Source of the DNA: Bacteroidota bacterium
GTDB lineage: Bacteria > Bacteroidota > Bacteroidia > Bacteroidales > JACABE01
Length of the DNA stretch: 64,000 nt
NCBI GenBank assembly: GCA_013377005.1
Contig: JACABE010000001.1
Span: forward strand, 273,307 to 337,306
Direction: 5' to 3'
This document shows, in pieces, positions 17,125-47,490 of the stretch. Positions within the stretch are counted from its first letter, which is position 1. Each line of letters starts with the position of its first letter. Below the pieces are notes generated by a model. That model saw only the letters and a program-made list of their open reading frames with translations, was not told where the DNA came from and made no database searches. The translations under genes were made by a program, and so were the position numbers.

Positions 17125-17310
17125 ATGCCAACAGAATATAAATTTCTATCAGATACAGAACCTACTGATGAACAATTGAGTTTTTTAATGCAGGATGTTG
17201 CCATCGAAGTAAAAAAGAAAGCTCAAGAGGCAAATACATTATTTTTAGTACAACTTCAGCAAATGATACAACAACTTAAAAACAAGCAATTAAATATTGA
17301 TTCTATATGA
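17125..17310 (+). CDS. Small acidic/helical protein, candidate antitoxin of the zeta-like pair
   Basis: 61 residues, not matched by me to a named family. The N-terminus is acidic (EYKFLSDTEPTDEQL) and the rest forms one long predicted helix rich in Gln, Lys and Leu (DVAIEVKKKAQEANTLFLVQLQQMIQQLKNK). Its TGA stop overlaps the ATG of the P-loop gene by 4 nt (ATGA), which suggests translational coupling. Size, position and overlap are those of an antitoxin, but it lacks a visible DNA-binding domain and does not resemble the classical epsilon antitoxin. The antitoxin role is inferred. Confidence 0.65.
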   Translation: MPTEYKFLSDTEPTDEQLSFLMQDVAIEVKKKAQEANTLFLVQLQQMIQQLKNKQLNIDSI

Positions 17311-17906
17311 ATATTGAAAAGCCAAAGTTGATTATTATTGCAGGTCCGAATGGTTCAGGAAAAACATCTGTTACAGGCAAAATATTGGAACATCAATGGA
17401 TTGAAGGATGCGTTTATGTAAATCCCGATAATATTGCACGTGATGACTTTGGCGATTGGAATTCACCTGAAGCTGTTTTGAAAGCTGCAAATAAAGCTGC
17501 GGAAATGAGAGAAGAATGTCTGTTAAAAGCAGAAGGGATATTATTTGAAACCGTTTTATCTGCACCTGATAAACTTGACTATATTCAAAGAGCCAAAGAT
17601 GCCGGTTATTTTATACGATTGTTTTTTGTAGGCACTGATCATCCTTCTATTAATGCTTCTCGTATTGCACATCGCGTTATGGAAGGTGGACACGATGTTC
17701 CTATTACAAAAATTATCAGCCGTTTTTCTAAATCTATTGCTAATTGTTGTATTGCTGCGTCTATTGTTGACAGACTATATGTGTACGACAATTCTGTAGA
17801 TTACGCTGAACCAAAGCTTCTTTTCAGGGCAAGTGATGGAAAACTTGAAAAAGAATATTCAGCAATAAATCCTTGGGCTCAAAATATTTTAAAAGCACTT
17901 TGCTGA
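17307..17906 (+). CDS. Zeta-toxin-like P-loop kinase
   Basis: A 199-residue P-loop protein with the Walker A motif AGPNGSGKTSVTG at residues 12-24. Other zeta/PezT-like blocks are CVYVNPDNIARDDFGDW, EGILFETVLSAPDKLDYI (substrate-binding FETV-type motif), then ASRIAHRVMEGGHDVPITKIISRF, where the Arg residues of the lid coordinate phosphates. Classical zeta toxins phosphorylate UDP-GlcNAc; this shorter subgroup is often annotated only as zeta toxin family protein. It overlaps the small upstream gene by 4 nt. Kinase fold is near certain; toxicity and substrate are inferred. Confidence 0.85.
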   Translation: MNIEKPKLIIIAGPNGSGKTSVTGKILEHQWIEGCVYVNPDNIARDDFGDWNSPEAVLKAANKAAEMREECLLKAEGILFETVLSAPDKLDYIQRAKDAGYFIRLFFVGTDHPSINASRIAHRVMEGGHDVPITKIISRFSKSIANCCIAASIVDRLYVYDNSVDYAEPKLLFRASDGKLEKEYSAINPWAQNILKALC

Positions 17907-24707: not shown

Positions 24708-25883
24708 ATGGATATTAAAATTTATTTAGAACCTGTTAGTTTTAAAAATGAAGATATTGATTATCATGATTTACGTCATCGATTAGGACATTTAATTTCT
24801 GCATATACTGAGGACGGTAACTTTCCTGATTTGGATGGAATTGATATTGCTATTATAGGAGTAAAGGAAGATAGAAGATCCGTTAATAATTATGGTAGTG
24901 CAAATGCCCCAGACGAAATTCGCAAGAAATTTTATCAATTATTTCCTTCCTCAGCAAAAAACAGCATTGTTGATATTGGGAATATAAAAAAAGGACATGC
25001 TGTTGAGGATACTTATTTTGCAATAAGCGAAGTAATTGCGTCACTTATTAAAAAAGAAATTATACCGATAATTATTGGAGGAAGTCAAGATTTGTGTTTT
25101 GCCAACTACAGAGCTTATGAAAAATTGGGACAAATCATTAATATTTTTACTGTTGATAATACTTTTGATTTAGGGGATGCTGAAGATGAGATAGATGCTC
25201 AAGCCTATTTGAGTAAAATTATTTTACATCAACCTAATTTTTTATTTAATTATACTAACATTGGATATCAAACTTATTTTGTTGATCAAGAGGCAATTGA
25301 CCTTATGGAAAAACTTTATTTTGATGCTTATCGTTTGGGTATAATAAAAAAAGAAATAGAATTGGTAGAACCTTTGATTCGCAATGCAGATATGATAAGT
25401 TTTGATATTTCAGCTGTTCGTCAAGCTGATGCACCCGGTAATGCAAATGCAACTCCTAATGGATTTAATGGAGAAGAAGTATGTCAGATTGCCCGTTATG
25501 CAGGGATGAGCGACAAATTAACTTCTATCGGTTTCTACGAATGTAATCCTACATTTGATAATAATGCACAAACCTCTCATCTTGTAGCTCAAATGATTTG
25601 GTATTTTATCGATGGATTTTATAATCGAAAATTTGATTATCCTTACAAAGACAAAGAAAACTATAAAAAATACTATGTTTCTATAAAAGATAATTCTCAT
25701 GAAATTATTTTTTATAAAAGTAAAAAAAGCGATCGATGGTGGATGGAAGTGCCGTGTCCTGTTGACATGAAAATCAAATACGAGCGTCATTATCTAGTGC
25801 CTTGTTCTTATAATGATTATCAGGTTGCTTTGGCAGATGAGGTTCCTGATCGTTGGTGGCAGGTTTTTAAGAAATTAATGTAA
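24708..25883 (+). CDS. Arginase/formimidoylglutamase-fold protein with degenerate metal site
   Basis: 391 residues of the ureohydrolase (arginase, agmatinase, formimidoylglutamase) family. The fold motifs are present but changed. The GGDH position reads GGSQD, the DAHxD position reads DNTFD, and SxDxD reads SFDIS. Thus two His and one Asp of the usual six manganese ligands are Gln, Thr and Ser. The C-terminal block GFNGEEVCQIARYAGMSDKL is well conserved, and about 70 residues rich in Tyr, Lys and Trp follow (SDRWWMEVP, DRWWQVFKKL). It is therefore likely not a manganese hydrolase of the ordinary kind. I believe similar variants recur in Bacteroidota, so it may be a conserved pseudoenzyme. It stands alone. 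Confidence 0.85.
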   Translation: MDIKIYLEPVSFKNEDIDYHDLRHRLGHLISAYTEDGNFPDLDGIDIAIIGVKEDRRSVNNYGSANAPDEIRKKFYQLFPSSAKNSIVDIGNIKKGHAVEDTYFAISEVIASLIKKEIIPIIIGGSQDLCFANYRAYEKLGQIINIFTVDNTFDLGDAEDEIDAQAYLSKIILHQPNFLFNYTNIGYQTYFVDQEAIDLMEKLYFDAYRLGIIKKEIELVEPLIRNADMISFDISAVRQADAPGNANATPNGFNGEEVCQIARYAGMSDKLTSIGFYECNPTFDNNAQTSHLVAQMIWYFIDGFYNRKFDYPYKDKENYKKYYVSIKDNSHEIIFYKSKKSDRWWMEVPCPVDMKIKYERHYLVPCSYNDYQVALADEVPDRWWQVFKKLM

Positions 25884-25915: not shown

Positions 25916-26935
25916 CTATTTAAAGTTTCTGTATTCTCTTTCAAATAGCAAACAAGTTTCAACAATGCTTTGATTAATCGGAGTAAAATCGAAGGATAAT
26001 TCTTGTTTTATTTTCGCTGATGAATATAAATATTTATTTTGTGAAGTATTTACGGTTTCTTTGGTAATCATTGGTTTACTGTTAAATATTGTGCTTTTTA
26101 ATTTTTCAAAGCGCCAAGCAAAATTCAGTAAAAATAAACTCGCTTTAAATTGAGGTGGTTTTTTGCCAAAAGCTGTCATTATTCTTGTAAAAAGTTCCTT
26201 ATAGCTGAGGTTTTCTGAAGAAAGAATATATCTTTGATTCTCAATTGAACTATTCATTAATTTTACCATAGCTTTAGCAACATCTCTTACATCAATAAAC
26301 CCATTTACGCCATTAGTGTAAAATTTAGTACCTTTCCACATCGTTTGAAAAATTTTCGAACTTCCCGATTCCCAGTTGCCAGGACCTAAAATAACAGATG
26401 GATTTACAATAACAGCATTCAAGCCTTCTTCAATGCCTCTCCAAACTTCTCTTTCCGCAGCATATTTACTTTTTGCATAATTTGAATTACGTCCGGAAGA
26501 TTTCCATGTAGTTTCTTCATTAATTAAATCTTCGTTTTCTGCTCTGCCAATAGCAGCGATTGAACTTACATAACATAGCTTTCTAACAGAAGACTTTAAT
26601 GCAGCATCAACAATATTAGCTGTTCCTTTGATATTGGTATTAAACATGCTTAATTTATCTTTTGATTCAAAAGAAACTTCGGCTGCACAATGATAGATTT
26701 GAGTGACTCCTTTCATAGCTTCATTCAGCGAAACAATATCATCTATATCACCTGTTATCCATTCTATTTGAGAAACCACCTGTTTGTAATCTGCTGTATA
26801 GTAAGAAAATATTTTTTCAGTTAACTGTAAACTGCTGTTTTTTCGTTTTAATGCTTTAGGTTTTTCGCCGTTTTTCAGTAATTCATATAATAGATGAGCA
26901 CCTACAAATCCCGTTCCTCCGGTTACTAATATCAT
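25916..26935 (-). CDS. NAD-dependent epimerase/dehydratase (extended SDR)
   Basis: 339 residues of the extended short-chain dehydrogenase/reductase family. The N-terminal cofactor loop is TGGTGFVGAHLL, the Asp pair region is WITGDIDD, and the catalytic Ser and YxxxK are in CYVSSIAAIG and SNYAKSKYAAE. The segment VIVNPSVILGPGNWESG is typical of dihydroflavonol-reductase-like and sugar-epimerase-like members. Substrate not assignable. It is convergent with the arginase-like gene (33 bp between stops), and copy C of the nonamer repeat lies behind its start. Confidence 0.9.
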   Translation of the reverse strand: MILVTGGTGFVGAHLLYELLKNGEKPKALKRKNSSLQLTEKIFSYYTADYKQVVSQIEWITGDIDDIVSLNEAMKGVTQIYHCAAEVSFESKDKLSMFNTNIKGTANIVDAALKSSVRKLCYVSSIAAIGRAENEDLINEETTWKSSGRNSNYAKSKYAAEREVWRGIEEGLNAVIVNPSVILGPGNWESGSSKIFQTMWKGTKFYTNGVNGFIDVRDVAKAMVKLMNSSIENQRYILSSENLSYKELFTRIMTAFGKKPPQFKASLFLLNFAWRFEKLKSTIFNSKPMITKETVNTSQNKYLYSSAKIKQELSFDFTPINQSIVETCLLFEREYRNFK

Positions 26936-27106: not shown

Positions 27107-29623
27107 CTAAATGAATAAACTTCCTATTTGGAAAACCAAAAACGAAATTACCCAAGCAAGAAGTGTAGTATAAATAGCAAGAAATAATGCCCATTTGATA
27201 CCTCCTGCTTCTTTTTTTACTGCGGCAAATACAGCTACGCATGGAAAATAAATTAAAACGAACATCAAAAAAGAAAAACCAGCCAAAGGAGTAAAAACAT
27301 ATTCATCTTTTTTGCTACCTGATTTGTAGGTTTCATTTTTTAATTTATTGATCAAAGCCGAAGAGTGTTCATCGGCATTATCATCAGCTTGATATATTAC
27401 ACCCATTGTACTTACAACAATTTCTTTGGCTGCAGTTCCTGCGAGTAAACTTACACTCATTTTCCAATCAAAACCTAAAGGACGCATGACTGGTTCAATA
27501 AAATGACCAATTCTTCCTATATAAGAATTTTCTTGTCGATTTGATTCCTTTTCAAGCTCAATATTTTTAACGGATATTACTCTTTCTTTGTTAATATTAG
27601 TAGTGTCATTTGGTAAAGCTTCTGCTTTTTTTTGAATATAAGCAAGTTCAGTATTCCTTATTTTTTGATTAAAAACAATTTCTTTGCTTGATTTGCGAGG
27701 GAAATAACCCAAAGCCCAAATAATGATTGAAGCAAACAAAATCACACCTCCCATCTTTTTAAGATATTGTCCGCTCTTATGCCAAACATGCTTATATGTT
27801 GCTCTTAAAGTGGGTATTCGATAAGGAGGAAGCTCCATTACAAAAGGTACATCTTTAGATTTAAAAACAAATTTGCTAAAGATAATTGCTACGATAATTG
27901 CAAGCAAAATTCCTATCATATAAATAGAAAATAATACAGTTCCTGCGTAATCGGCAAAAATAGCACTGGTCACTAAAATATACACTGGCAATCGGGCACT
28001 GCATGACATAAAAGGATTGATAAGAATAGTTAGAATCCGATCACTTTTGTTTTCTAAAGTCCGGGTTGACATAATTGCAGGTACATTACAACCAAATCCC
28101 ATTATTAGTGGAATAAAAGACTTCCCATGCAAGCCTATTTTATGCATCAATTTATCCATAATAAAAGCAGCACGTGCCATATAACCAGTGTCTTCCATTA
28201 TCGAGATAAACAAAAATAAAATTAAAATATTAGGAAGGAAAACGATAACACCACCTACGCCATGTATAATGCCATTTATTAATAAATCTTTCAGCATTCC
28301 TTCTGGAATCCATTTTTGAAAAAAGCCAGCAATAAAGCTTACCATATCTTCAATCCACGAAACTGGATATTCGCCCAATTTAAAAGTAGATTGAAACATA
28401 ATCCATAAAAAGAAAATAAAAATGGGATAACCCCAAATTTTGTGTGTGAGAATATTATCAATCTTCTTCGTATTTGAAGGAGAATCAGATGGGTTTTTTT
28501 TATAACTGAAAGTTTCCTTTAAAGCACCGGCAATAAAACCATATCGAGCATCAGAAATTAATGTTTCAGAATCTTCTGTATATAATATTTCCAAGCGTGA
28601 TACTTCTTTTTTAATTGTGTCAGCTATAGTAAAATAATTATCCCAATTAATTATAGAAGTCATAGCCCACTTGTCTTTTTCTAGTAGTTTAATTGCTAAA
28701 AAACGTGAGGAAATCTTATCAGTAAACGATTTATTTTTCTTTATTTCATTTTGAATATTTTTAATAGCCTCTTCAACATTAGCTCCATAGTTTATATGAA
28801 TATGTCTAATCGTAACTTCATTGTCTTCATATACTTCTATTATTTTTCTAAACAATTCTTTTACTCCTTTTCCTTTTGACCCAACAGTAGGAATCATTGG
28901 GATTCCAATCATATTACCTAAGTGATTATAATCAAAAAGATTACCTGTATTTTCCAATTCATCAAACATATTTAAGGCAATTACTACCTTTATATCCATG
29001 TCAATCAATTGTGTTGTAAGGAATAAATTACGTTCAAGATTTGAAGAATCTAATACATTGATAACAACATCCGGACTTTCATCAAAAATAAATTTTCTTA
29101 CATATAATTCTTCGGGAGTATAGGCTGAAATTGAATAAGTTCCTGGTAAATCGGTAAGATTAAAAGTATAATCATCCAATTGAAACTTAGCCAACTTGGC
29201 ATCAATCGTGACACCACTATAATTACCAACATGTTCTTTGGAGTCTGAAGCAAAGTTAAATAAAGACGTTTTTCCTGAATTTGGATTGCCAACTAATGCG
29301 ATATCAATAATTTTCCCCTTTTCTCTGGCCGAAGTTTTTAAAACATCCTCATCAATTACACCACCATAGGAATGCAAAGAGTGAAAAGAGGCAGCTTCAT
29401 TCTCTGTAATTATTTCTATCAATGATGCTTCACTACGACGCAAAGAAATAGCGTAACCCATTATTTGATATTCGATAGGATCTTTTAAGGGTGCAGATTT
29501 TACAACTTCTACTTTTCGTCCTTTTACAAACCCCATTTCGGTGATTCTGTTGCGGAATGCACCTCTCCCTTTTACTTTCGTAATAATGCCCGATTCTCCT
29601 TGTTTTAAATCATTTAAAGTCAT
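27107..29623 (-). CDS. feoB: Ferrous iron transporter, FeoA-FeoB fusion
   Basis: An inner-membrane Fe(II) importer. Residues 1-72 form a FeoA SH3-like domain (MTLNDLKQGESGIITKV, RITEMGFVKG). The FeoB G domain follows, with G1 GNPNSGKTS near residue 112, G3 DLPGTYS and G4 NMFDE. The membrane part carries GFGCNVPAIMSTRTL, a core FeoB signature, and Gate domains with FMSCSARLPVY. The 838-residue fusion is common in Bacteroidota, where feoA is not separate. An insertion of about 60 charged residues near 640-690 (IQKKAEALPNDTTNINKERV) lies between membrane segments. A dyad over its promoter suggests iron control. Confidence 0.96.
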   Translation of the reverse strand: MTLNDLKQGESGIITKVKGRGAFRNRITEMGFVKGRKVEVVKSAPLKDPIEYQIMGYAISLRRSEASLIEIITENEAASFHSLHSYGGVIDEDVLKTSAREKGKIIDIALVGNPNSGKTSLFNFASDSKEHVGNYSGVTIDAKLAKFQLDDYTFNLTDLPGTYSISAYTPEELYVRKFIFDESPDVVINVLDSSNLERNLFLTTQLIDMDIKVVIALNMFDELENTGNLFDYNHLGNMIGIPMIPTVGSKGKGVKELFRKIIEVYEDNEVTIRHIHINYGANVEEAIKNIQNEIKKNKSFTDKISSRFLAIKLLEKDKWAMTSIINWDNYFTIADTIKKEVSRLEILYTEDSETLISDARYGFIAGALKETFSYKKNPSDSPSNTKKIDNILTHKIWGYPIFIFFLWIMFQSTFKLGEYPVSWIEDMVSFIAGFFQKWIPEGMLKDLLINGIIHGVGGVIVFLPNILILFLFISIMEDTGYMARAAFIMDKLMHKIGLHGKSFIPLIMGFGCNVPAIMSTRTLENKSDRILTILINPFMSCSARLPVYILVTSAIFADYAGTVLFSIYMIGILLAIIVAIIFSKFVFKSKDVPFVMELPPYRIPTLRATYKHVWHKSGQYLKKMGGVILFASIIIWALGYFPRKSSKEIVFNQKIRNTELAYIQKKAEALPNDTTNINKERVISVKNIELEKESNRQENSYIGRIGHFIEPVMRPLGFDWKMSVSLLAGTAAKEIVVSTMGVIYQADDNADEHSSALINKLKNETYKSGSKKDEYVFTPLAGFSFLMFVLIYFPCVAVFAAVKKEAGGIKWALFLAIYTTLLAWVISFLVFQIGSLFI

Positions 29624-33426: not shown

Positions 33427-35916
33427 TTAAAATTTCTTAATTTTTTTAAGAAACGATTTTTTCTTAATTTTAGTATTATCGTCTGAATAATATCCGTATC
33501 CGTATCCGTATCCATATCCATATCCATATCCGTATCCATATCCATATCCTGAACCGTATCCATATCCTGTAGAATCACGGTCGAGACGCACATCATTAAC
33601 AAGAAGGTTGAATTTCCCTACATTCCTTTTTTCAATATCAGTAATAATCGACTTAAATACTTTCTTGTTTGTATAGTTTTGGCGGGTAACATAAACATTA
33701 GCATCTGTATATTTCATTAATAAAAACGCATCAGTAATTAAACCAACCGGTGGAGTATCAATGATTATATAGTCATACATTAACTGCAATTTAGCAAATA
33801 ATTCATCATTTCTTTCTGAAGCAATTAATTCAGATGGGTTAGGAGGAATAGGGCCTGCCATGATGATATCAAGATTTGGAATGAATGATTTTTGAATAAT
33901 ATCTTCCAACTTACTTTTACCAATCAAATAAGAACTGATACCTTCTGTATTTGTAAGTGCAAAATCCTGATAAATTTTGGGTTTACGTAAATCGAAACCC
34001 ATAAGCAAAGTCTTTTTGCCATACAAAGCAAAAATTGAAGCAAGGTTAATTGAAACAAATGTTTTTCCTTCACTTACCATTGTGGAAGTTACTAAAAATG
34101 TTTGCTTTTCCTTGCCTTTTCCAATAAATTGCAAATTTGTTCTTACCGCACGGAAAGATTCTGCAATGGATGACTTTGGCGAATCTTGAACTACAGTATT
34201 ACTTTCTCTATCGCTATGAATAATATGCCCAATAATTGGGAATGTACTTATTTTTTCTATATCACTTTTTTCAACAATAGTATTATTCATAAAATCTTTA
34301 ATAAACAAATAGATAAGAGGAATAAAAATACCAAGAATAAATGCGATGATATAATTAAGTGTTGTTTTAGGATAAACTTTTTCAGCAGATCTTGCTTTGT
34401 CAATTATTTTATTATCAGCCACGTTTGAAGCTTTTGCAATTGCAGATTCTGCTCTTTTTTGCAATAAAAAAGTGTAAATTTGATCATTAATTTTAAACTT
34501 TCTTTCGATATTGATTAAATTCCTTTCTGTTGCAGGTAATTTATTAAGTTCCACTTGAACAGTTGCAATTCTTTTATCTAGTTCTTTAATGCTTATATTA
34601 GAGATATTAACAATATTCTTTACATTTTCAATTAAAAATCTTTTTGTATTTTCAATTTTTGAATCTATAGCAGTGATTAGAGGGTTGTTAGAAGTTGATG
34701 AAATTTTTAGTTTTTCTTTTTCAGAAGAAAATGTAATTAAATTTTCAACAAGTTTCGCCAATAAAGGATCTTCAATTCCCATAGTAGAGGGTGCTATGAT
34801 ATCACTTTTCACGGTAGAATTAGTTGCAAAATAATCAGTCAAGTATTTATAGTATCTTGATTTTACAGATTCTATAGCTTTTTCTTTGTCTAAATCTGCC
34901 ACTTTATCAGAAACAACTCTGGCTTCATCGCTTATATTCATAATTTTATTGGCAGTTCTGAAGTTTTGAAGCTGACTTTCAACTATATGAAGAGAGTCTG
35001 TAATGCCAGAAAGCTGACCATCAATAAATCCAACGGTATTGGTTGCAATAAGGTTCTTTTCCTCCAAGTCACTATTAATATATGCTTCAGTAAGAGCATT
35101 GATAAAATCTATAGCTTTTTGCTTATTTCTATTTTTTACCATAACAGCCAGAACAGTAGCTTCCTTATTAATCGGTTCTATTTTTGAACTATTAAATTGC
35201 GATGTAATCTGAGTTAAATCATTGATTGTGAAAAGGAAAATTTTCCCATTGGTATCTTTTCCTTTGTATTTAGGCGTTAATAGAATTTTAAAATTTAAAT
35301 TTTCATCTTTGTAAGTTTCGCCAAAATATAAAGTTTTTATAACTTTATGTATATCAACCTTATCTTCTAATGCTTTTTCTTCTCTATAGTTAAAAACTGT
35401 AACATCGGATTGCTCTGGAATTTCAAGTTCATATTTATCGCTCGATAGAATTTTAACAGAAATTTGAACTCCAACTAGCTGATTAAAAGAGGTATCTAAA
35501 GCCACTTCGAAAGGATTCTCTTTATATAACTCCTCGGTTTTAAACTTACTTTCGACAAAATATGAAACGTAAAAATTGAGTTGTTTAATTGCCTTATTAG
35601 TTAATGAATAAGATTGTAGAATACCAATTTCATTTTGAACATTCTTTTGGGAACCAAAAAGATCTAGCCCTTGTAATAGATCTCCTCCATTCATTCCGGC
35701 ACCTTTTTTTTCATCTTTTACTAAAACCGTTGATTTTACTTCGTAAATCGGTACGGAATATTTATTGAAAACAAATGCCAATAATAGAGTTAAAACAACC
35801 GAAATAGCAAAATAGTGCCAATGCGAAAGTATTTTAAAAACAATGGACATAATATCCACTTTTTCTTCTGGTTCTTGTTGTTGTGGTAAATTGTTGTTTG
35901 CTTGATATTGTTCCAC
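33427..35916 (-). CDS. Polysaccharide co-polymerase/tyrosine autokinase (Wzc-like)
   Basis: 829 residues. The N-terminus (about 20-130) is a Wzz-type domain beginning with a membrane segment (YFAISVVLTLLLAFVF). The middle is coiled coil (about 300-480), with a GNVR-like segment before the second membrane segment (LNYIIAFILGIFIPLIYLFI). The C-terminus is a BY-kinase with Walker A STMVSEGKTF, the Walker A' variant LLMGFDLRKPKI (first Asp replaced by Gly) and Walker B IIIDTPP. The tail carries 13 Tyr alternating with Gly, then a Lys-rich end. In Wzc, tail tyrosines are autophosphorylated to control chain length. The start codon is GTG. The wza gene lies directly upstream. Confidence 0.93.
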   Translation of the reverse strand: MEQYQANNNLPQQQEPEEKVDIMSIVFKILSHWHYFAISVVLTLLLAFVFNKYSVPIYEVKSTVLVKDEKKGAGMNGGDLLQGLDLFGSQKNVQNEIGILQSYSLTNKAIKQLNFYVSYFVESKFKTEELYKENPFEVALDTSFNQLVGVQISVKILSSDKYELEIPEQSDVTVFNYREEKALEDKVDIHKVIKTLYFGETYKDENLNFKILLTPKYKGKDTNGKIFLFTINDLTQITSQFNSSKIEPINKEATVLAVMVKNRNKQKAIDFINALTEAYINSDLEEKNLIATNTVGFIDGQLSGITDSLHIVESQLQNFRTANKIMNISDEARVVSDKVADLDKEKAIESVKSRYYKYLTDYFATNSTVKSDIIAPSTMGIEDPLLAKLVENLITFSSEKEKLKISSTSNNPLITAIDSKIENTKRFLIENVKNIVNISNISIKELDKRIATVQVELNKLPATERNLINIERKFKINDQIYTFLLQKRAESAIAKASNVADNKIIDKARSAEKVYPKTTLNYIIAFILGIFIPLIYLFIKDFMNNTIVEKSDIEKISTFPIIGHIIHSDRESNTVVQDSPKSSIAESFRAVRTNLQFIGKGKEKQTFLVTSTMVSEGKTFVSINLASIFALYGKKTLLMGFDLRKPKIYQDFALTNTEGISSYLIGKSKLEDIIQKSFIPNLDIIMAGPIPPNPSELIASERNDELFAKLQLMYDYIIIDTPPVGLITDAFLLMKYTDANVYVTRQNYTNKKVFKSIITDIEKRNVGKFNLLVNDVRLDRDSTGYGYGSGYGYGYGYGYGYGYGYGYGYYSDDNTKIKKKSFLKKIKKF
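33491..33568 (-). repeat. Hexanucleotide microsatellite encoding the Tyr-Gly tail of the Wzc-like kinase
   Basis: Nine exact TATCCR hexamers run from 33491 to 33544 on the plus strand, followed by near-copies. On the coding strand each is GGATAY, a Gly-Tyr pair. Gain or loss of a unit keeps the frame and changes the number of tyrosines by one. Confidence 0.9.
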
Positions 35917-35960
35917 GTTTTAATTTTTTTAAATGAGAATATTTAATTCTTTTATTGGTG

Positions 35961-36764
35961 TTACTTTTTTAGAAGAGCATAAATAGTAACAATTGTTGAT
36001 ACAGATGAAAGTACCACTGACCAAGGGAACGTGGCAAATCCAACAGATTTTGCTGCCTTGTTGGGTTCCACATATATAATGTCATTAGGTAAAATGAAGA
36101 ACTCTGGTTTATTTAACAAATTTCTATCTGTTAAATCTATCATGCTGACTTTATCACCTGCTTCTGTTTTGCGAATTAACATTACACGATAACGATTGCC
36201 ATAAGGAGTTAAATCTCCTGCCTTCGCAATTGCTTCAAGTATATTTACATTATCTTGATAAAAAGTATAAACACCAGGTCTTTCTATATCTCCAATGATA
36301 CTTACGCGATAATTGGCTAATTTAACTACTACAGTGGCATCTTTAAGGTATTTGCCCATTGCTTTTTGTACTTCTTTTTGTGCATCAGCTACAGTTAAAT
36401 CTTTTACATAAATATTTCCTGAAATTGGGATATTAATGCTTCCTGAATCGCTTATAGTGTAACTGTTTAAATAAATTCCTATTTCATTTTGAAATTGATA
36501 CATATTACCACTTCCAGAAGCTCCTCCATTAAAAAAAGCTGAATTATCAGGATCTAAGCTATTAATCTTAATAAATAAAATATCATTTGCCCTTAAGTGA
36601 TATTCTGGGCTTTTATTTAAAAGAGAATTACTTCCACTTATACTATTTGCTTTTTCTTGCAAGTAAATTAACTTCTTTTGAGAAGTACAAGATGTAAAAA
36701 CAATAATAATCGAAGTAAGTAAGATTAAGCTAATTTTTTTGTTTATAATTTTTATACGCTTCAT
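35961..36764 (-). CDS. Polysaccharide export outer-membrane lipoprotein (Wza-like)
   Basis: 267 residues. A lipoprotein signal peptide ends in the lipobox FTSC near residue 26. The polysaccharide-export (Poly_export) domain starts at about residue 55 (YHLRANDILFIKI), followed by a SLBB domain (about 145-230: VSIIGDIERPGVYTF and ILEAIAKAGDLTPYGN). The C-terminal hydrophobic segment (PWSVVLSSVSTIVTIYALL) spans a membrane, as in Bacteroidota homologues. It is shorter than E. coli Wza. It is followed by the wzc-like gene after 44 bp, giving a two-gene export module without glycosyltransferases nearby. Confidence 0.93.
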   Translation of the reverse strand: MKRIKIINKKISLILLTSIIIVFTSCTSQKKLIYLQEKANSISGSNSLLNKSPEYHLRANDILFIKINSLDPDNSAFFNGGASGSGNMYQFQNEIGIYLNSYTISDSGSINIPISGNIYVKDLTVADAQKEVQKAMGKYLKDATVVVKLANYRVSIIGDIERPGVYTFYQDNVNILEAIAKAGDLTPYGNRYRVMLIRKTEAGDKVSMIDLTDRNLLNKPEFFILPNDIIYVEPNKAAKSVGFATFPWSVVLSSVSTIVTIYALLKK

Positions 36765-36884
36765 TATTCAATGATTATATTTAAATAAAAAGTAAAATTT
36801 ACTCCATTTGTTGGCAAAAGTAATAATATTTTTACAAATTTAGATTAAAATATTATAGCCTCCTAAGCTTTTGTCTGTATAATG

Positions 36885-38219
36885 TTAAATATTAATTGAT
36901 TTGGCAGAATCACCAATCAGAGTTGCTGAAGTACAATCTGTAATGATAACATCTACATAATCACCTATTTCAAAATTTTCTTTTGGAAAAACAACAACTT
37001 TATTTTGGCTATTTCTTCCAGAAAGCTTAAGTTTTGATCTTTTTGAAACACTATCAATTAATACCTTATACGTTTTTCCAATATCTTTTTTATTGCTTTC
37101 TAATGCTAACTCCATTTGAAGTTCAATAATTTCTTCCAATCGTTTACTTTTAACTATCTCTGGAATGTCATCTTTAAAACGTTTTGCAGCAATAGTATCT
37201 GGTCTTTCAGAATATTTAAACATAAAAGCATAGTCAAAACCCACCCATTTCATTAACGAAAGTGTATCTTGATAATTTTCTTCAGTTTCCGAACAAAATC
37301 CTGTAATAATATCTGTTGAGATGGCACAATCGGGTATGATGGTTTTAATAGCTTCTATTCTGTTCATATACCACTCACGGGTATATTTTCTGTTCATCCG
37401 TTTCAGCACTTCGCTACTTCCAGATTGGACCGGTAAATGAATGGCTTTGCAAATATTTTCGTGTTTTGCAATAGTGTGTAAAAGTTCATCAGAAATATCT
37501 TTCGGATGAGAGGTTGCAAAGCGTACTCTTAATAAGGAATTTATCAAGGCAACACTTTCTAAAAGTTTTGTGAAATTCATACCCTGATCGCTTTCCCATT
37601 GATAAGAATTTACATTTTGACCTAACAATGTAATTTCACGGTAGCCTTTTTTAAATAAGTCTTTTGCTTCATTGATAATCGTTTCAGGATTTCTACTACG
37701 TTCTTTCCCTCTGGTATAGGGCACTACGCAATAGGTGCAAAAGTTCTCGCAACCTCTCATTATCGAAATAAAAGCAGAAATACCATTGTTATCGAGTCTT
37801 ACTGGCTCTATTTCAGCATACGTTTCTTCTTCGGAAAGTAGAACATTCGCAGCCTTTTGTCCACTGTCTACAGCATTAAGCAAATTAGGTAAATCACGAT
37901 AAGCATCGGGCCCAACTATTAAATCTACAGCCTCTTCATTAAAGATTTGCTCTTTCAAGCGTTCGGCCATACAACCCAATAATCCAATTTTTAAATTAGG
38001 GTTTTTCTTTTTATGTGATCTTAGTTCTTTTAATCTTCTGTTTACTCTTTGTTCAGCATTATCACGAATGGAACATGTATTAATAAAAATTACACTGGCT
38101 TGATTTATATCCGTTGTTAATTCATAATCTATTGATTTCATGATAGAGCCTACGATTTCACTATCAGAAAAATTCATCTGACAACCATAAGTTTCAATAA
38201 AAACTTTCTTTTGTTCCAC
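36885..38219 (-). CDS. miaB: tRNA-2-methylthio-N6-dimethylallyladenosine synthase MiaB
   Basis: A radical SAM methylthiotransferase that modifies A37 of tRNAs reading U-initial codons. The UPF0004 domain has IETYGCQMNFSDSE (first cluster Cys), FINTCSIRDNAE and GLLGCMAE. The radical SAM motif is CENFCTYCVVPYTRG near residue 155, and a TRAM domain ends the protein (KLSGRNSQNKVVVF and VDVIITDCTSATLIG). The 444 residues are the normal length. The start codon appears to be GTG. Transcription probably begins about 115 bp upstream. Confidence 0.97.
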   Translation of the reverse strand: MEQKKVFIETYGCQMNFSDSEIVGSIMKSIDYELTTDINQASVIFINTCSIRDNAEQRVNRRLKELRSHKKKNPNLKIGLLGCMAERLKEQIFNEEAVDLIVGPDAYRDLPNLLNAVDSGQKAANVLLSEEETYAEIEPVRLDNNGISAFISIMRGCENFCTYCVVPYTRGKERSRNPETIINEAKDLFKKGYREITLLGQNVNSYQWESDQGMNFTKLLESVALINSLLRVRFATSHPKDISDELLHTIAKHENICKAIHLPVQSGSSEVLKRMNRKYTREWYMNRIEAIKTIIPDCAISTDIITGFCSETEENYQDTLSLMKWVGFDYAFMFKYSERPDTIAAKRFKDDIPEIVKSKRLEEIIELQMELALESNKKDIGKTYKVLIDSVSKRSKLKLSGRNSQNKVVVFPKENFEIGDYVDVIITDCTSATLIGDSAKSINI

Positions 38220-38331
38220 TTCAGTTTTTTTTATTAAAATTTAATACCCAAACAAAAATTAATTATATTTGTTTAGTAATTATTATAAACAATTTAATAT
38301 CAATATATTAAATATTACTTTTTTTGTGGTG

Positions 38332-38339
38332 CAAAGGTA
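38332..38339 (-). promoter_or_regulatory. Putative -7 element of miaB
   Basis: On the minus strand TACCTTTG is a canonical TAnnTTTG element, giving a leader of about 105 nt. It lies in the 240-bp region divergent from topA. Confidence 0.5.
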
Positions 38340-38459
38340 GTTAAAAAAGCTAAATTTTTATTTTTTCAATAGAATTTTGAAAAATAATTCGCTTTGTTAA
38401 GTTTTTATTGTTTTATTTTGTGCCGTTTTTCATACAATTATATATAAATAGGAAGAATT

Positions 38460-41036
38460 ATGTCGAAAAATCTTGTAATAGTTGAATCACCTGCAAAAGC
38501 TAAGACAATAGAGAAATTTTTAGGAAGTGATTTTATTGTAAAATCAAGTTTCGGTCATGTTAGAGATTTATCTAAAAAGACCATCAGTATTGATATTGAG
38601 AATAATTTCCAACCTCAATATGAAATATCACCCGATAAGGTAAAAATAGTAAATGAGCTAAAAAAGTTAGCTAAAGAAGCAGAAATAGTTTGGTTGGCTT
38701 CCGATGAAGATCGTGAGGGAGAAGCTATTTCTTGGCATTTAATGGAAGCTTTAGGATTGAAAAATAATAAAGTTAAACGTATCGTTTTTCATGAAATCAC
38801 AAAAACAGCTATTCTGGAAGCAGTTGAAAATCCACGTTCTATAGATCTTCACCTCGTAAATGCCCAACAGGCACGCAGGGTTTTGGATAGATTGGTTGGC
38901 TATGAGCTTTCACCAGTTTTATGGAAAAAAGTAAAACCAGCATTGTCAGCTGGACGGGTACAATCAGTTGCAGTTAGGTTAATAGTTGAAAGAGAAGATG
39001 AAATCAGAGGGTTTTTAACTACTTCATTCTATAAAGTGATAGGCATTTTTGATGTAAAAAATTATGATAAAAATACTACAATTACGGCAGAACTTTCTCA
39101 AAGATTTGAGAAGAAAATAGATGCTGTAAAGTTCTTAAATGATTGTATTAAATCTATATTTACTATTGCTGATGTAGAAACAAAACCAGCAAAAAAGTCA
39201 CCAGCACCTCCATTTACAACTTCAACACTTCAACAAGAAGCAAGCAGAAAATTAGGATTTCCTGTTGCTAAAACCATGATGGTTGCTCAACAATTATATG
39301 AATCAGGATTCATAACATATATGAGAACTGACTCAGTAAACCTTTCGAATATGGCGCTTGCAATGGCGAAAAAAGAAATTGAAAGTTTGTTCGGAGAAGA
39401 CTATGTAAAAATTCGCAAATATGCCACCAAAACAAAAGGTGCTCAGGAAGCTCATGAAGCTATTCGCCCTACCTACATGAATAATCAAACAGTAAATGGC
39501 GATGCTTCGCAAAAGCGTTTGTATGATTTAATCTGGAAACGCACCATTGCTTCGCAAATGAGTGATGCTCTCTTAGAAAAAACAAACATTACGATTGACA
39601 TTGATAATAGAAAAGAGAAATTTGTTGCCAAAGGTGAAGTAATAAAATTTGATGGATTCTTGAAAGTTTATCTTGAATCGAATGATGATGAAGATGAAGA
39701 AAATCAAAAAGGCTTATTACCATCGGTGAAAAAAGGTGAAAAATTAATATTAAACGAATGTAATGCTTGCCAAAGTTTTACACAACATCCACCAAGATAT
39801 ACCGAAGCAAGTTTGGTTAAAAAATTAGAAGATTTGGGTATAGGAAGACCTTCTACTTATGCTCCTACTATTTCTACTATTCAAAAAAGAGAATATGTTG
39901 TAAAAGAAGACAGAGATGGTGAAATCAGGAAATTTGATTTAATTACACTCAAAAACAATGTAATTAAGGAAGAAGTAAAAACCGAAAAAACCGGGTTTGA
40001 AAAAAGCAAATTATTTCCTACTGACATTGGTTCTGTGGTTAACCGATTTTTAGTACAGCATTTTGAAAGCATACTTGACTATAATTTTACCGCTGAAGTT
40101 GAAAAGGACTTTGATGAAATTGCAGAAGGACAAATGGAATGGAATGAAATGATTAAAACCTTTTATGTTCCTTTTCACGAAAATGTTGAAAAAACCTTAA
40201 AAGAATCGGAAAGAGCAAAAGGCGAACGCTTATTAGGTGTTGATCCAAAGACAAAGAAAAATGTTTATGTCAGAATTGGCCGCTTTGGTGCTATGGCACA
40301 AATAGGAGAAGCCAAAGATGAAGAAAAACCAACTTTTGCTGGATTGAAAAAAGGACAAAGCCTTGACACCATTACACTCGAACAAGCGCTTGAATTATTT
40401 AATCTGCCAAGAACTGCTGGCGTTTTTGAAAGTATTGAAATGGTGGTTTCTGTTGGCCGCTTTGGTCCTTATGTTCGCCACGATGGTAAATTTTATTCTT
40501 TAATTAAAACTGATGACCCTTACGATGTAACAGAAGAAAGATGCATCGAAATTATCAAAGCAAAAAGAATTACCGATGCAGCTAAAGCTGAGATTTCAAA
40601 ACATTTCCCAAAAACATTGGGAGCATATGAAAAAGCGGATGTTGTAGTAAATATCGGGAGATTTGGTCCTTATATTACTTACAATAATTCTAATTTTCCA
40701 GTTCCCAGAGCACAAGATTTATTGGCTTTAACATTAGAAGAAGCGATTGAATACATAAAAGGGAATAAAAAGAAATCTGCCGAAAAAAGCATCAAAGAAT
40801 TTCCTGAAAATAACGATGTAAAAGTACTTAGTGGAAGATATGGTGCTTACATCAAAATTGGAAAAGATAATTACAAAATAACAGGAGATAAAGAAGCTAA
40901 AGATTTAACACTGGCCGATTGTTTGAAAATAGCTGAAGAAGGTGGTAAAACTACAAAAAAGAAAGTTACAAAAAGGACAACTACTAAAAAAGCAGCAACA
41001 ACTAAATCAACAAAAACAGCGACTAAGAAGAAATAG
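38460..41036 (+). CDS. topA: DNA topoisomerase I
   Basis: A type IA topoisomerase that relaxes negative supercoils. The Toprim domain (about 1-145) shows VIVESPAKAKTIEKFLG and SDEDREGEAISWH. The active-site Tyr is in ESGFITYMRTDSVNLS near residue 285. The C-terminus holds repeated zinc-less modules (VRIGRFGAMAQIG, VSVGRFGPYVRHDGKF, VNIGRFGPYITYNN, SGRYGAYIKIG) and a Lys/Thr-rich tail of about 35 residues. The 858 residues fit Bacteroidota TopA. sufS follows 13 bp downstream. Confidence 0.97.
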   Translation: MSKNLVIVESPAKAKTIEKFLGSDFIVKSSFGHVRDLSKKTISIDIENNFQPQYEISPDKVKIVNELKKLAKEAEIVWLASDEDREGEAISWHLMEALGLKNNKVKRIVFHEITKTAILEAVENPRSIDLHLVNAQQARRVLDRLVGYELSPVLWKKVKPALSAGRVQSVAVRLIVEREDEIRGFLTTSFYKVIGIFDVKNYDKNTTITAELSQRFEKKIDAVKFLNDCIKSIFTIADVETKPAKKSPAPPFTTSTLQQEASRKLGFPVAKTMMVAQQLYESGFITYMRTDSVNLSNMALAMAKKEIESLFGEDYVKIRKYATKTKGAQEAHEAIRPTYMNNQTVNGDASQKRLYDLIWKRTIASQMSDALLEKTNITIDIDNRKEKFVAKGEVIKFDGFLKVYLESNDDEDEENQKGLLPSVKKGEKLILNECNACQSFTQHPPRYTEASLVKKLEDLGIGRPSTYAPTISTIQKREYVVKEDRDGEIRKFDLITLKNNVIKEEVKTEKTGFEKSKLFPTDIGSVVNRFLVQHFESILDYNFTAEVEKDFDEIAEGQMEWNEMIKTFYVPFHENVEKTLKESERAKGERLLGVDPKTKKNVYVRIGRFGAMAQIGEAKDEEKPTFAGLKKGQSLDTITLEQALELFNLPRTAGVFESIEMVVSVGRFGPYVRHDGKFYSLIKTDDPYDVTEERCIEIIKAKRITDAAKAEISKHFPKTLGAYEKADVVVNIGRFGPYITYNNSNFPVPRAQDLLALTLEEAIEYIKGNKKKSAEKSIKEFPENNDVKVLSGRYGAYIKIGKDNYKITGDKEAKDLTLADCLKIAEEGGKTTKKKVTKRTTTKKAATTKSTKTATKKK

Positions 41037-41049
41037 TTTTAATTTCAAT

Positions 41050-42267
41050 ATGTTGAATATAAATAAAATCAGGCAAGATTTTCCCATCTTGCTACAGCAA
41101 GTGTATGGCAAACCTTTCGTTTATTTCGATAATGGTGCTACCACACAAAAACCTCAATGTGTAATAGATGCCGTTTCAAAATATTATACCGAAGGAAACA
41201 GCAACATCCATCGTGGTGTGCATTATATGAGCCAACAAGCCACTGTGGCTTTTGAAAATGCAAGAGAAACTGTCAGGAAATTCATCAACGCACCGCATGC
41301 TCACGAAATTATTTTTACTCGTGGAACTACCGAAAGCATTAATCTTGTTGCCTCTTCTTTCGGGAAAAAATATATCGGAAAAGGTGATGAGGTAATGATT
41401 TCAGCAATGGAACATCATTCAAATATTGTTCCCTGGCAAATGATTTGTGAGGAAAGACAAGCAGTATTAAAAGTAATCCCTTTTCACAAAAACGGAGAGC
41501 TTGATATCACTGCGTTTGAAAACTTAATTTCAGAAAAGACCAAAATTATTGCCATTACACATGTTTCAAATGTATTGGGAACTATCAACCCTATTAAAGA
41601 AATCATCAAAAAAGCACACGAACACAATATTCCTGTTCTGGTAGATGGAGCACAAGGAATTGCCCATTCCAGCGTAGATGTGCAGGATTTGGATTGTGAT
41701 TTCTATTGTTTTTCGGGACATAAAGTATATGCACCTATGGGAATAGGTGTTTTGTATGGGAAAGAAAAATACTTAAATGCCATGCCTCCTTATCAGGGTG
41801 GTGGCGAAATGATACAAACCGTTACTTTTGAGAAAACAACTTATAACGAATTACCTTACAAATTTGAAGCAGGAACACCCAATGTAGGTGATGTGTTGGG
41901 ATTGGAAGCTGCATTGCAATATGTTGAAAACATCGGAATCGAAAATATTGCTATTTACGAAAATGAATTGTTAGACTATGCCACTACTGAACTATTAAAG
42001 ATGGATGGCATTCGTATTATAGGGACTGCAAAGCATAAAGCTGCTGTTGTTTCGTTTTTAATCGACAATATCCACCCTTATGATGCCGGTACTATCATCG
42101 ACCGATTTGGCGTGGCGGTAAGAACAGGACATCATTGTGCGCAACCCTTGATGGATATTTTTGAAATTCCCGGAACTATTCGTGCTTCTTTTGCGTTTTA
42201 TAATACCAAAGAAGAAATTGATGTTTTGATAAAAGCTATTTATAAAGTAAAAGAAATGTTTAATTAG
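41050..42267 (+). CDS. sufS: Cysteine desulfurase SufS
   Basis: A group II PLP-dependent cysteine desulfurase feeding sulfur to Fe-S assembly. PLP Lys is in CFSGHKVYAPMGIG, an aspartate pairing with the cofactor is in VLVDGAQGIAHS, and the catalytic Cys lies on the short loop RTGHHCAQP, typical of SufS. The start MLNINKIRQDFP at 41050 was chosen: the open frame runs back into topA but that extension is an out-of-frame reading of its Lys-rich tail. 405 aa. sufE lies two genes downstream. Confidence 0.97.
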   Translation: MLNINKIRQDFPILLQQVYGKPFVYFDNGATTQKPQCVIDAVSKYYTEGNSNIHRGVHYMSQQATVAFENARETVRKFINAPHAHEIIFTRGTTESINLVASSFGKKYIGKGDEVMISAMEHHSNIVPWQMICEERQAVLKVIPFHKNGELDITAFENLISEKTKIIAITHVSNVLGTINPIKEIIKKAHEHNIPVLVDGAQGIAHSSVDVQDLDCDFYCFSGHKVYAPMGIGVLYGKEKYLNAMPPYQGGGEMIQTVTFEKTTYNELPYKFEAGTPNVGDVLGLEAALQYVENIGIENIAIYENELLDYATTELLKMDGIRIIGTAKHKAAVVSFLIDNIHPYDAGTIIDRFGVAVRTGHHCAQPLMDIFEIPGTIRASFAFYNTKEEIDVLIKAIYKVKEMFN

Positions 42268-42294
42268 TTTTTAAAGTTTATAAATTAAAAGAAT

Positions 42295-42771
42295 ATGAAA
42301 AAAGTAGTTTTATTTTTAGTCGCAATATTATTTATTTCGACTTCCATTTTTGCTCAGAAGCAATTGAAAAACTTTGAGGAGTTAATGACTTCATTAAAGG
42401 CAGGAAAGCAAGTTCGTATGGTGGTTTATTATAAAAAATGCAAACTCATCAGCGATAACGAAGAAAAAGAAAAAGTACCCGATGCTATTGGTGGAATGAA
42501 TTTGGGTGTTTATGAATACTTTGAAAAAGAGGCTGTAAAAAACAAATTGGCTTTTGTAGTTGCTTCCGAATCAAAACTGATTGAAAATCCTAAAGGTGAT
42601 GGTTTTGTATATAATTATGTGAAGATAAAAGTATCTGAAGATAACAAAGTGAAGATAACCGCACAATATGTAGATGTAAAGTCATTTGAACAGAAAATGG
42701 ATGAGAACTTTTTCGGTGAAATCAATGATGAGAAAAATGATAAAGCGGTTTATTTTTACGAAGTGAATTAA
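42295..42771 (+). CDS. VirK-like periplasmic protein
   Basis: 158 residues with a signal peptide (LFLVAILFISTSIFA|Q). The body resembles the VirK family: LKNFEELMTSLKAGKQVRMVVYYKKCKL, PDAIGGMNLGVYEYF, then a strand-rich C-terminal half. VirK proteins were named in Agrobacterium but their biochemical role is unknown. It sits between sufS (27 bp) and sufE (10 bp) on the same strand and is evidently cotranscribed with them. Whether that reflects a role in sulfur metabolism is unknown. Confidence 0.75.
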   Translation: MKKVVLFLVAILFISTSIFAQKQLKNFEELMTSLKAGKQVRMVVYYKKCKLISDNEEKEKVPDAIGGMNLGVYEYFEKEAVKNKLAFVVASESKLIENPKGDGFVYNYVKIKVSEDNKVKITAQYVDVKSFEQKMDENFFGEINDEKNDKAVYFYEVN

Positions 42772-42781
42772 TAATTAAATA

Positions 42782-43207
42782 ATGACAATACAGGAAATAG
42801 AAAATCAGATTATTGAAGAGTTTCAAAACTTCGATGACTGGATGGATAAATACAATTATGTGATTGAAATGGGTAGAGAATGTCCGATGATTGACGAAAA
42901 AAACAAAGTTGAAAATAACTTAATCGTGGGTTGTCAATCGAGGGTGTGGTTAAGTGCTGAATATGTTGATGGCGTAATTGTTTTCAAAGCCGATAGCGAT
43001 GCTGTTATTACCAAAGGTATTGCAAACTTGCTCATTCGTACCTTATCTCACCAAAAACCACAGGATATTTTAGATGCAAAACTTGATTTTGTTGACAAAA
43101 TTGGTTTAAAAGATCATCTTTCACCCACGCGTTCGAATGGTTTGGTGGCTATGATGAAGCAAATGAAACTGTATGCATTGGTGTTTAAGACGAAATACGA
43201 GAAATAA
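42782..43207 (+). CDS. sufE: Sulfur acceptor protein SufE
   Basis: SufE takes the persulfide from SufS through a conserved Cys and passes it to the scaffold. The 141-residue protein shows FQNFDDWMDKYNYVIEMGR at the N-terminus and the active Cys in NLIVGCQSRVWL near residue 50, then KGIANLLIRTLS and the C-terminal block HLSPTRSNGLVAMMKQMK. This is a textbook SufE. SufB, SufC and SufD are not in the window. Confidence 0.96.
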   Translation: MTIQEIENQIIEEFQNFDDWMDKYNYVIEMGRECPMIDEKNKVENNLIVGCQSRVWLSAEYVDGVIVFKADSDAVITKGIANLLIRTLSHQKPQDILDAKLDFVDKIGLKDHLSPTRSNGLVAMMKQMKLYALVFKTKYEK

Positions 43208-47000: not shown

Positions 47001-47490
47001 CAATGCTTCTGGTCTTCCTCATTTGCATTACAATTGGAGCTGGGGCGATGGCACACATGATACAATTGCTTATCCATCTCATACATACAGTACAGCCGGA
47101 TATTATAATATCTGTCAAAGTATTACCGATTCTGTGGGATGTACGGCTACCTATTGCGATTCATCTTATTTGCAAAAATCTCCAAATGCTATAATATTTA
47201 TAACAGTGGTTCCTCAGGGTTCTTTAGGCATTAATATGATTGTTTCTTCTGATAAAATAAATATTTATCCCAATCCTGCTTCGAATAAACTTATTATAGA
47301 TATCCAACAATTAAAAAACCTGCAAAATACAAGCATTTCAATATATGATATAAAAGGAAATTTAATTTTTCAGCAAGCTGTAATACAACTTCAAACAGAA
47401 CTTAATATTACTGATTTTTCTAAAGGAGTATATGTGATTAAATTAAATAATGACAATATTAGTATTGTAAACAAGTTTGTGAAGGAATAA
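44077..47490 (+). CDS. Large secreted YCF48/BNR-type beta-propeller protein with PKD-like and T9SS domains
   Basis: 1137 residues. A signal peptide (YFLLIVLFIGINASG|Q) is followed from about residue 30 to 620 by 14 tandem repeats of about 42 residues. Each has a consensus of YF...NTGYxVGxxGxILKTxNGGxNW; the last is truncated at KTTQGG. These are YCF48-like propeller blades. After them are two Ig/PKD-like modules with a Cys, then two nearly identical copies of a SYTVPTIANATSYIWTLPNG module, then a PKD domain (WSWGDGTHDT). A type A T9SS sorting domain ends it (INIYPNPASNKL, GVYVIKLNND, NKFVKE). A surface binding role is likely; the ligand is unknown. Confidence 0.92.
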   Translation: MKKLYFLLIVLFIGINASGQSCNGWNSVTNEITNSLKSVYFISADTGYTVGEDGTILKTINGGINWIAQNSGITNNLKSVYFANNSTGYVVGDNGIILKTIDGGNNWNIQISGTILPLYSVCFNNTNIGYAVGDYGKILKTIDGGTNWITQTSGTTQYLETVYFASSDTGFIVGSGGTILKTINGGTNWITQTSGNTNWLYSINFTDANTGYITGESGTILKTINGGLSWVSQISGTTKYLNSVYFINNNVGYIVGNGYNFDGIILKTINGGLNWSIQTNSITSSLNSVFFTDSNKGYTVGNNGRITKTINGGTNWIAQTSDTSRYLSSIYFTDLNTAFAVGSDGGIYKTINGGTNWISQISGTPYGLNSVYFTDYNTGYTVGDNILKTIDGGANWTKQINGGSYSLSSVHFPNANVGYAVGSNGRFLKTTNGGANWTIQTNIVNSYLYSVFFINSDTGFITTSSGSILKTINGGTNWITQTIFNGSLTSVSFTDSNIGYVVGSSGAIFKTTNGGTSWTAQISNTSYPLNSVFFFNSNIGYIVGSLGTILKTTNGGINWTLQNSGTSRNLTSVFFNNADTGYIVGGNLKGRLLKTTQGGNPIILPTSIPNGPTQICIGSGISTYTVLSILNATSYVWSITPLTAGTITGNDTIGTVNWNPAFSGTVCISVHGSNGSCNGNNSLLIVNKYSNTIGGSINGGGNICLGDSTGILTLYGNNGNIIKWQKKMNNGVWSDIADTTTTYNEIPASIGIWSYRAIVQNGGCTTSYSDSAIVNVNFSPVNAGAISGISTVCQGQTAVSYTVPTIANATSYIWTLPNGATGTSTTNIITVNFGVNAVSGNITVKGHSICGDGAPATIAITVNPLPSNAGTISGPTTVYQGQNAVNYTVTAITNATSYIWTLPNGATGTSSTNSITVNYSSLATSGNITVKGANACGDGVISSLHVTVIPNTTNCSAQFNLIADTNVLHHYFIVNNASGLPHLHYNWSWGDGTHDTIAYPSHTYSTAGYYNICQSITDSVGCTATYCDSSYLQKSPNAIIFITVVPQGSLGINMIVSSDKINIYPNPASNKLIIDIQQLKNLQNTSISIYDIKGNLIFQQAVIQLQTELNITDFSKGVYVIKLNNDNISIVNKFVKE

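Follow-up and report, generated by a model that had tools for sequence, protein, structure and literature searches.

The question raised by this locus is what is being preserved in a protein of the arginase fold when half of its metal ligands have been replaced. The window, by which we mean the whole stretch of 64,000 nucleotides that was analyzed, carries the gene of such a protein, named ARG here. The reading that we favor, and to which we give about an even chance of being correct, is that ARG is an arginase-fold binding or regulatory protein and not a ureohydrolase, that it probably holds one metal, that it possibly serves the type IX secretion system (T9SS) and that it belongs to a class-wide branch. 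The arginase shape, the loss of the second-metal half of the site and the position of the gene before secretion and gliding genes in many relatives together suggest a protein that probably binds or controls rather than an enzyme.

Ligand positions of the window protein

The ARG reading frame begins with ATG, encodes 391 aa and has zero internal stops. The features discussed below are the following:

24708..25883, plus strand: ARG, arginase-fold non-canonical protein, 391 aa (reading frame plus profile search; AlphaFold2 model, pLDDT 94)
25077..25091, plus strand: GGSQD, aa 124-128; the site-A His position is Gln127 (codon CAA, 25086-25088)
25155..25169, plus strand: DNTFD, aa 150-154; D150 and D154 retained, the site-B His position is Thr152
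25398..25412, plus strand: SFDIS, aa 231-235; bridging D233 retained, the site-B Asp position is Ser235
25539..25541, plus strand: E278, counterpart of the guanidinium-binding Glu of SpeB (E274), retained in the window ARG
25632..25880, plus strand: family-specific C-terminal domain, aa 309-391; F335, W344, C366 and A374 are fixed even in a nearly ligand-less subclade

The Pfam profile PF00491 (Arginase) matches residues 46-300 with 81.1 bits against a cut-off of 22, and this score over the curated cut-off places ARG in the profile family. It is the sole PF00491 match found in its own genome (G000, 3.7 Mb, 96.85% complete). The accessible part of PMC8049259 gives the ligands of E. coli SpeB as H126, D149, H151, D153, D230 and D232, and the alignment of SpeB (locus L180) with ARG pairs these with Q127, D150, T152, D154, D233 and S235. 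Three of the six ligands, two His and one Asp, are thus replaced while three Asp are retained, which bears out the initial annotation, where the same replacements had been read from the three motifs. A two-metal ureohydrolase has all six ligands within GGxH, DxHxD and SxDxD; ARG departs from this at Q127, T152 and S235, and on these residues a two-metal ureohydrolase function appears very unlikely. We also asked whether the missing counterpart of SpeB H163 is an extra sign of lost chemistry, and dropped the idea because the position is Ser in all 15 non-SpeB canonical copies. The best reading of the N-terminus, made by eye, is that ARG would be cytosolic.

Ligand pattern across the family

Relatives were collected from a phylum sample of 296 genomes, 155 of which had any ARG match and supplied loci, and from a scan of 84,980 species genomes that found 528 relatives, the best 80 of the 528 being kept, so that this set leans to close relatives. 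Removing identical sequences left 155 distinct proteins (L086 is absent from the set because it gave no tblastn match). From these we set apart 15 canonical-type sequences, the five of the f5 subclade and five very divergent f7 sequences (L069, L072-L075), and the remaining 130 core-family proteins include the window's own; the grouping was made by locus and similarity and not by ligands.

The three Asp are nearly invariant in the core family (D150 in 130/130, D154 in 128/130, D233 in 130/130). Column 127 is Q in 110 proteins, H in 19 and N in one, and by eye, from codons and tree, His and Gln are intermixed in several parts of the tree. Column 152 holds 16 different residues, with H in six of the 130, and ranks with the most variable columns of the protein; column 235 is S in 87 and N in 15, with others in the rest and Asp in none. 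Ranked by entropy conservation among 391 positions, columns 150, 154, 233, 127, 152 and 235 stand at 7, 34, 15, 82, 385 and 229. The 26 sequences below 62% identity show an unchanged pattern. In 124 of the 130 neither of the ligands special to the second metal survives, and close homologues retaining all six ligands, the outcome that would speak for a single damaged gene or a misalignment, were looked for and found in 0/130.

In a plant arginase, one Mn is coordinated by the His of GGDH, both Asp of DAHxD and the leading Asp of SxDxD. The other Mn is coordinated by the two bridging Asp, by the His of DAHxD and by the later Asp of SxDxD (PMC7370999, section 13). Read against this assignment, the ligand columns indicate that the family has preserved the residues of one metal site, where Gln or His stands as the fourth ligand, and has freed the two that belong to the other site alone. 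Most members would then bind no more than one metal, in the site formed by Gln/His and three Asp.

Selection on the family is, judging by the substitution rates, strongly purifying. A total of 314 dN/dS pairs were computed and 13 printed, and the 11 printed pairs with pS <0.55 give values of 0.019-0.094; the window's own two pairs are near or beyond saturation, one at 0.04 with dS 1.6 and the other with infinite dS. In a maximum-likelihood tree of 75 rows, 59 family rows are split from 16 canonical ones by a branch with 100/100 support, with the caveats that the bootstrap was unsettled and that the long branches of SpeB and L091 join each other. The initial annotation had supposed that the non-canonical branch recurs in Bacteroidota, with the same substitutions across the phylum. 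A conserved branch does exist, but it is class-wide and not phylum-wide: in the phylum sample every match better than E 1e-35 falls in the class, and ligands were read in eight matches from other classes, all of canonical type. Likewise, the same positions depart from the canonical set, but the replacing residues vary and one metal site is kept. Seven genomes of the class have a second, canonical copy in addition to ARG (L084, L085, L087-L091). Two otherwise canonical arginase-family copies, L076 and L081, have Asn in place of the GGxH His.

Predicted structure and family-specific residues

The AlphaFold2 model of ARG, built from 74 aligned sequences, has a mean pLDDT of 94.0 and a pTM of 0.93, and the predicted chain shows the three-layer arginase fold. 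Its best VIA match is the N114H variant of T. cruzi formiminoglutamase (4myn; Z 37.7, rmsd 1.9, 278 aligned), and B. subtilis HutG follows at Z 36.4. Because the model superposes on 4myn and the same positions are non-canonical across the family, misalignment and chance are ruled out as the source of the pattern. The BFVD search gave four matches at E<=0.001, and two of these carry the name arginase; a PHROGs search gave no match.

The structural matches cover residues 13-309 and leave the C-terminal ~83 residues outside. For this domain Foldseek returned zero matches at E<=0.001, the best VIA match reached a Z of only 2.9, and the best E of a C-terminal profile against PDB sequences was 0.16; Pfam gave none for the window ARG and scattered weak matches for other members (best E 0.0022). 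Modelled alone, the domain has a pLDDT of only 77.5, so these searches are no evidence of a new fold.

The five f5 sequences (L066-L068, L070 and L071) read NSISND at the ligand columns, only the last being D. This subclade nevertheless retains R56, F205, R209, E221, P222, R225, C259, W298, F335, W344, C366 and A374, where family-specific means a residue found in <30% of the 16 canonical sequences; F335, W344, C366 and A374 lie in the C-terminal domain, which canonical sequences lack. That the residue set is kept through a near-loss of the ligands suggests that the conserved work is done there and not at the metals.

These observations bear on whether ARG could be an enzyme of altered chemistry, that is, a one-metal arginase-fold hydrolase or lyase using the kept Gln/His-Asp-Asp-Asp site on some substrate. 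The near-complete constraint on the three site-A Asp and the restriction of the fourth position to Q, H and once N are what such an enzyme would require; E278, moreover, is E in 102/130 family proteins, and zmARG, which has Cys at the GGDH His, is reported as still active in the available text of PMC6988801. Against this stand the maintenance of the f5 subclade, which is without nearly all ligands, the loss of both second-metal ligands in nearly the whole core family, and the fact that no gene of amino-acid or guanidino catabolism was recognized among the recurrent neighbor clusters that were named (some of the clusters, mostly by eye). We therefore regard an altered enzyme as rather unlikely. 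Since E278 is E in only the 102 proteins just mentioned, one guanidino ligand shared by all members is also unlikely. The initial annotation had offered a pseudoenzyme and altered chemistry side by side; the protein stands as non-canonical, and we lean, at the even chance given above, to a protein that binds or regulates.

Genomic neighborhood and co-occurrence with gldL

In relatives the recurrent gene order is topA-ARG-(porP)-gldK-gldL-gldM-gldN. At locus L118 miaB, topA, a PorP family protein, GldK, GldL, GldM and GldN were each identified by NCBIfam over cut-off; the ruvC, ispD, queA, ntrC, lptE, secG, wzc and wza neighbor clusters in relatives were named by eye. Among 125 loci, the window included, 86 have topA as the immediate upstream neighbor in the same orientation and 41 have gldK, again in the same orientation, no more than four genes downstream, both counts coming from a sample biased to close relatives. 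We therefore also give the figures for a class sample of 159 genomes drawn evenly from the class, 148 of which have a strong ARG match (three weak matches, E 3e-23 to 2e-16, were counted as absent). Here topA lies <=4.5 kb upstream of ARG on the same strand in 85/148 genomes, gldL lies <=8 kb downstream in 80 of the 143 genomes with both genes listed (33/60 families), and ARG stands between topA and gldL in 70/148. The two flanking genes are within 12 kb of each other in 70 of the 142 genomes with both listed, and ARG is between them in 70/70.

ARG and gldL also occur together: in the class sample 146 genomes have both, six have neither, two have ARG only and five gldL only (Fisher p 6e-7, uncorrected for kinship). 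In the ARG-only genomes, G347 and G387, the gldM match is also absent. The contig of G387 ends inside a gene that reads by eye as gldK, and in G347 a stretch of 470 bases separates the downstream side of ARG from the contig start; given these contig ends, both cases may be assembly gaps. In the phylum sample, gldL over cut-off was found in 71 genomes, all in the class, and two f12 genomes (G190 and G249) have gldL and no ARG match. Within the window's own order, 57 of 60 genomes have gldL and 43 have a strong ARG match (E<=1e-50), all of these within the 57; the other 14 gldL genomes are without a strong match (10 none, four weak). These 14 indicate that the T9SS can do without ARG, and they weaken a strict dependence of the T9SS on ARG, which we had considered. 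The overall pattern makes ARG look like an accessory of T9SS-bearing lineages and not a required part.

The tightest link of ARG is to topA, with a median gap of 21.5 bp from the topA stop to the ARG start (86 of 89 loci, those within 400 bp). The gap from ARG to porP or gldK is looser, with a median of 134 bp over 41 loci and <=100 bp in 4/41, so co-transcription with gldKLMN would be no more than a possibility; in the part of PMC5879114 available, gldKLMN of Flavobacterium columnare is treated as an operon preceded by an upstream region of its own. The short topA gap would fit a factor linked to topA, with a part in DNA topology or in maintaining the chromosome, or a protein with general housekeeping duties, the gld genes being downstream passengers. 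So would the many relatives in which topA and ARG are followed by a ruvC-like gene instead of gld genes, and the two nearly ligand-less f5 loci (L066 and L071) where ARG comes directly after topA. Weighing on the other side, topA is present in 155/159 class genomes whether ARG is present or not, whereas ARG tracks gldL, and ARG is beside gldL although topA is elsewhere (six genomes) or unlisted (four genomes). A topA-linked role is, in our judgment, improbable.

The f7 copies L072, L073 and L075 encode very divergent arginase-fold proteins of 277, 278 and 335 aa and lie one gene from gldK; the intervening gene of L072 reads as murF, and porP is also present at L072 and L073. The GldL matches of f7 are weak as well, which may point to a joint remodelling with the divergent arginase-fold copies.

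Proposed role

A binding or regulatory role is the most likely one for ARG, and a link to the T9SS is plausible. On this reading, the lineage would have given up two-metal ureohydrolase chemistry long ago and selection would maintain another role. The single metal may have a structural use or may help to hold a small ligand of guanidino or amide type, and the working surface may now consist of R56, F205, R209, E221, P222, R225 and W298 together with the C-terminal domain. ARG would then be a binding, sensing or assembly factor, with the cytoplasmic face of the GldL/GldM T9SS-gliding motor as its most plausible target, where it would be accessory and dispensable. A more specific form, which we offer tentatively, would make ARG an unrecognized cytosolic subunit or regulator of the T9SS/gliding motor throughout the class: a sensor, with one metal or none, through which a cytoplasmic metabolite or the assembly state is coupled to GldL/GldM, its surface shifted to the family-specific residues and the new C-terminal domain. 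With GldK, GldL, GldM, GldN and PorP of the T9SS, ARG shares the genomic neighborhood and the co-occurrence with gldL; it differs from these core genes in being an arginase-family member and in being missing from some gldL genomes. The words 'arginase' and 'formimi' are absent from the main text of a paper on the T9SS motor (PMC8986121), and in a literature search of titles and abstract openings, a scope in which subscription papers fall mostly outside, the matches listed held no tie of the arginase family to the T9SS or gliding. If the link in gene order reflects function, ARG would be an overlooked cytosolic partner of the secretion motor, possibly hidden under formimidoylglutamase-type labels.

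Comparison with known arginase-family proteins

Automatic annotation may label ARG as a formimidoylglutamase, and the best NCBIfam match is indeed hutG (TIGR01227), a model matched at E<=0.001 by all 74 aligned members. The fold over residues ~15-309 is common to HutG and T. cruzi formiminoglutamase (3m1r, 4mxr, 4myn; Z 36-38), and Q188 of ARG is found in 10/16 canonical copies as well. The score, however, is 104.7 bits against an equivalog cut-off of 229.15, and ARG differs from HutG in its incomplete two-metal ligand set, in the extra ~83 aa C-terminal domain and in the family-specific R56/F205/R209/E221/P222/R225/W298. Urocanase (hutU), the earlier pathway step, has no match at E<=1e-40 in the window's own genome (96.85% complete), 20 of the 21 hutU-less genomes are listed and 17 of those 20 carry ARG, and the seven class genomes with both a canonical copy and ARG also speak against this identity. 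A true HutG is accordingly rejected on the score below cut-off, the ligand loss and the lack of a hutU match, and we see very little chance of it; genes of the ARG type should not be taken for histidine-degradation enzymes.

Proteins of the arginase fold whose metal site is broken are already known, and a function has been assigned to few of them. As far as the accessible portion of PMC11271267 goes, MetCb, a subunit of metformin hydrolase, is an arginase-family pseudoenzyme without metal that has five of six ligands changed and serves a catalytic sister; proteins of its clade carry three to five ligand mutations and are encoded in pairs with the catalytic one, and the pairs came from four other phyla, not Bacteroidota. 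The same portion cites a T. brucei and a Fusobacteria case, and an arginase-like protein of Trypanosoma brucei, a eukaryote, is by its title likewise without a binuclear Mn cluster (Hai et al. 2015). MetCb and ARG share, on that account, the arginase fold with several ligands replaced, and the three replacements of ARG fall within the range of the MetCb clade, as they should if ARG were the metal-free partner subunit of an active arginase-family enzyme. MetCb has a catalytic sister subunit, however, and none was found in the window genome, where ARG is the one PF00491 match; a heteromer of this type is therefore rejected for that genome and is most improbable as an account of ARG. The branch described here is class-wide, keeps one metal site and loses the other, and its gene outlives a near-complete loss of ligands.

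A single decaying gene or a misalignment, suggested by nothing more than the three differing ligands, has next to no chance and is ruled out by the family-wide pattern, the dN/dS values and the SpeB alignment; the unbroken frame, the full-length relatives over many families, the strong purifying selection and the confident model all agree with the earlier view that the gene is not decayed.

The window locus

The initial annotation had named topA and T9SS genes as neighbors to look for; they are real neighbors in relatives and not at the window locus itself, where ARG is 12.6 kb upstream of topA and adjoins neither topA nor gld genes. The surroundings of ARG in the window are:

25916..26935, minus strand: SDR/epimerase neighbor; a homologue (cluster 22) is directly beside ARG in L032-L035 and L040
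29756-31489: zinc carboxypeptidase with a T9SS C-terminal sorting domain (Por_Secre_tail)
33427..41036: wzc-wza-miaB (minus strand) and topA (plus strand), in the order of many relatives, but with no ARG after topA
44077-47490: YCF48-repeat/PKD protein with a T9SS C-terminal sorting domain (Por_Secre_tail)

The window wzc and wza were identified by Pfam. topA is followed by a class-V aminotransferase that reads as SufS and then by SufE (region 33427-43207), and the porP-gldK-gldL-gldM-gldN genes of this genome are on another contig, C45 (porP, gldM and gldN by eye). It would appear that the ARG gene has been relocated in the window lineage. The nearest relatives, L092-L094, have upstream of ARG an opposite-strand gene of similar size, the start of which resembles, by eye, that of the alginate-export-type porin of the window; because they share this upstream gene, the relocation would predate these genomes.

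Three other features of the window may be recorded. A FeoA-FeoB fusion is encoded as one 838-aa protein at 27107-29623, a Zeta-toxin-type kinase frame (PF06414, 44.8 bits) lies at 17307-17906, and the Wzc-like protein at 33427-35916 has a long Gly-Tyr repeat near its C-terminus.
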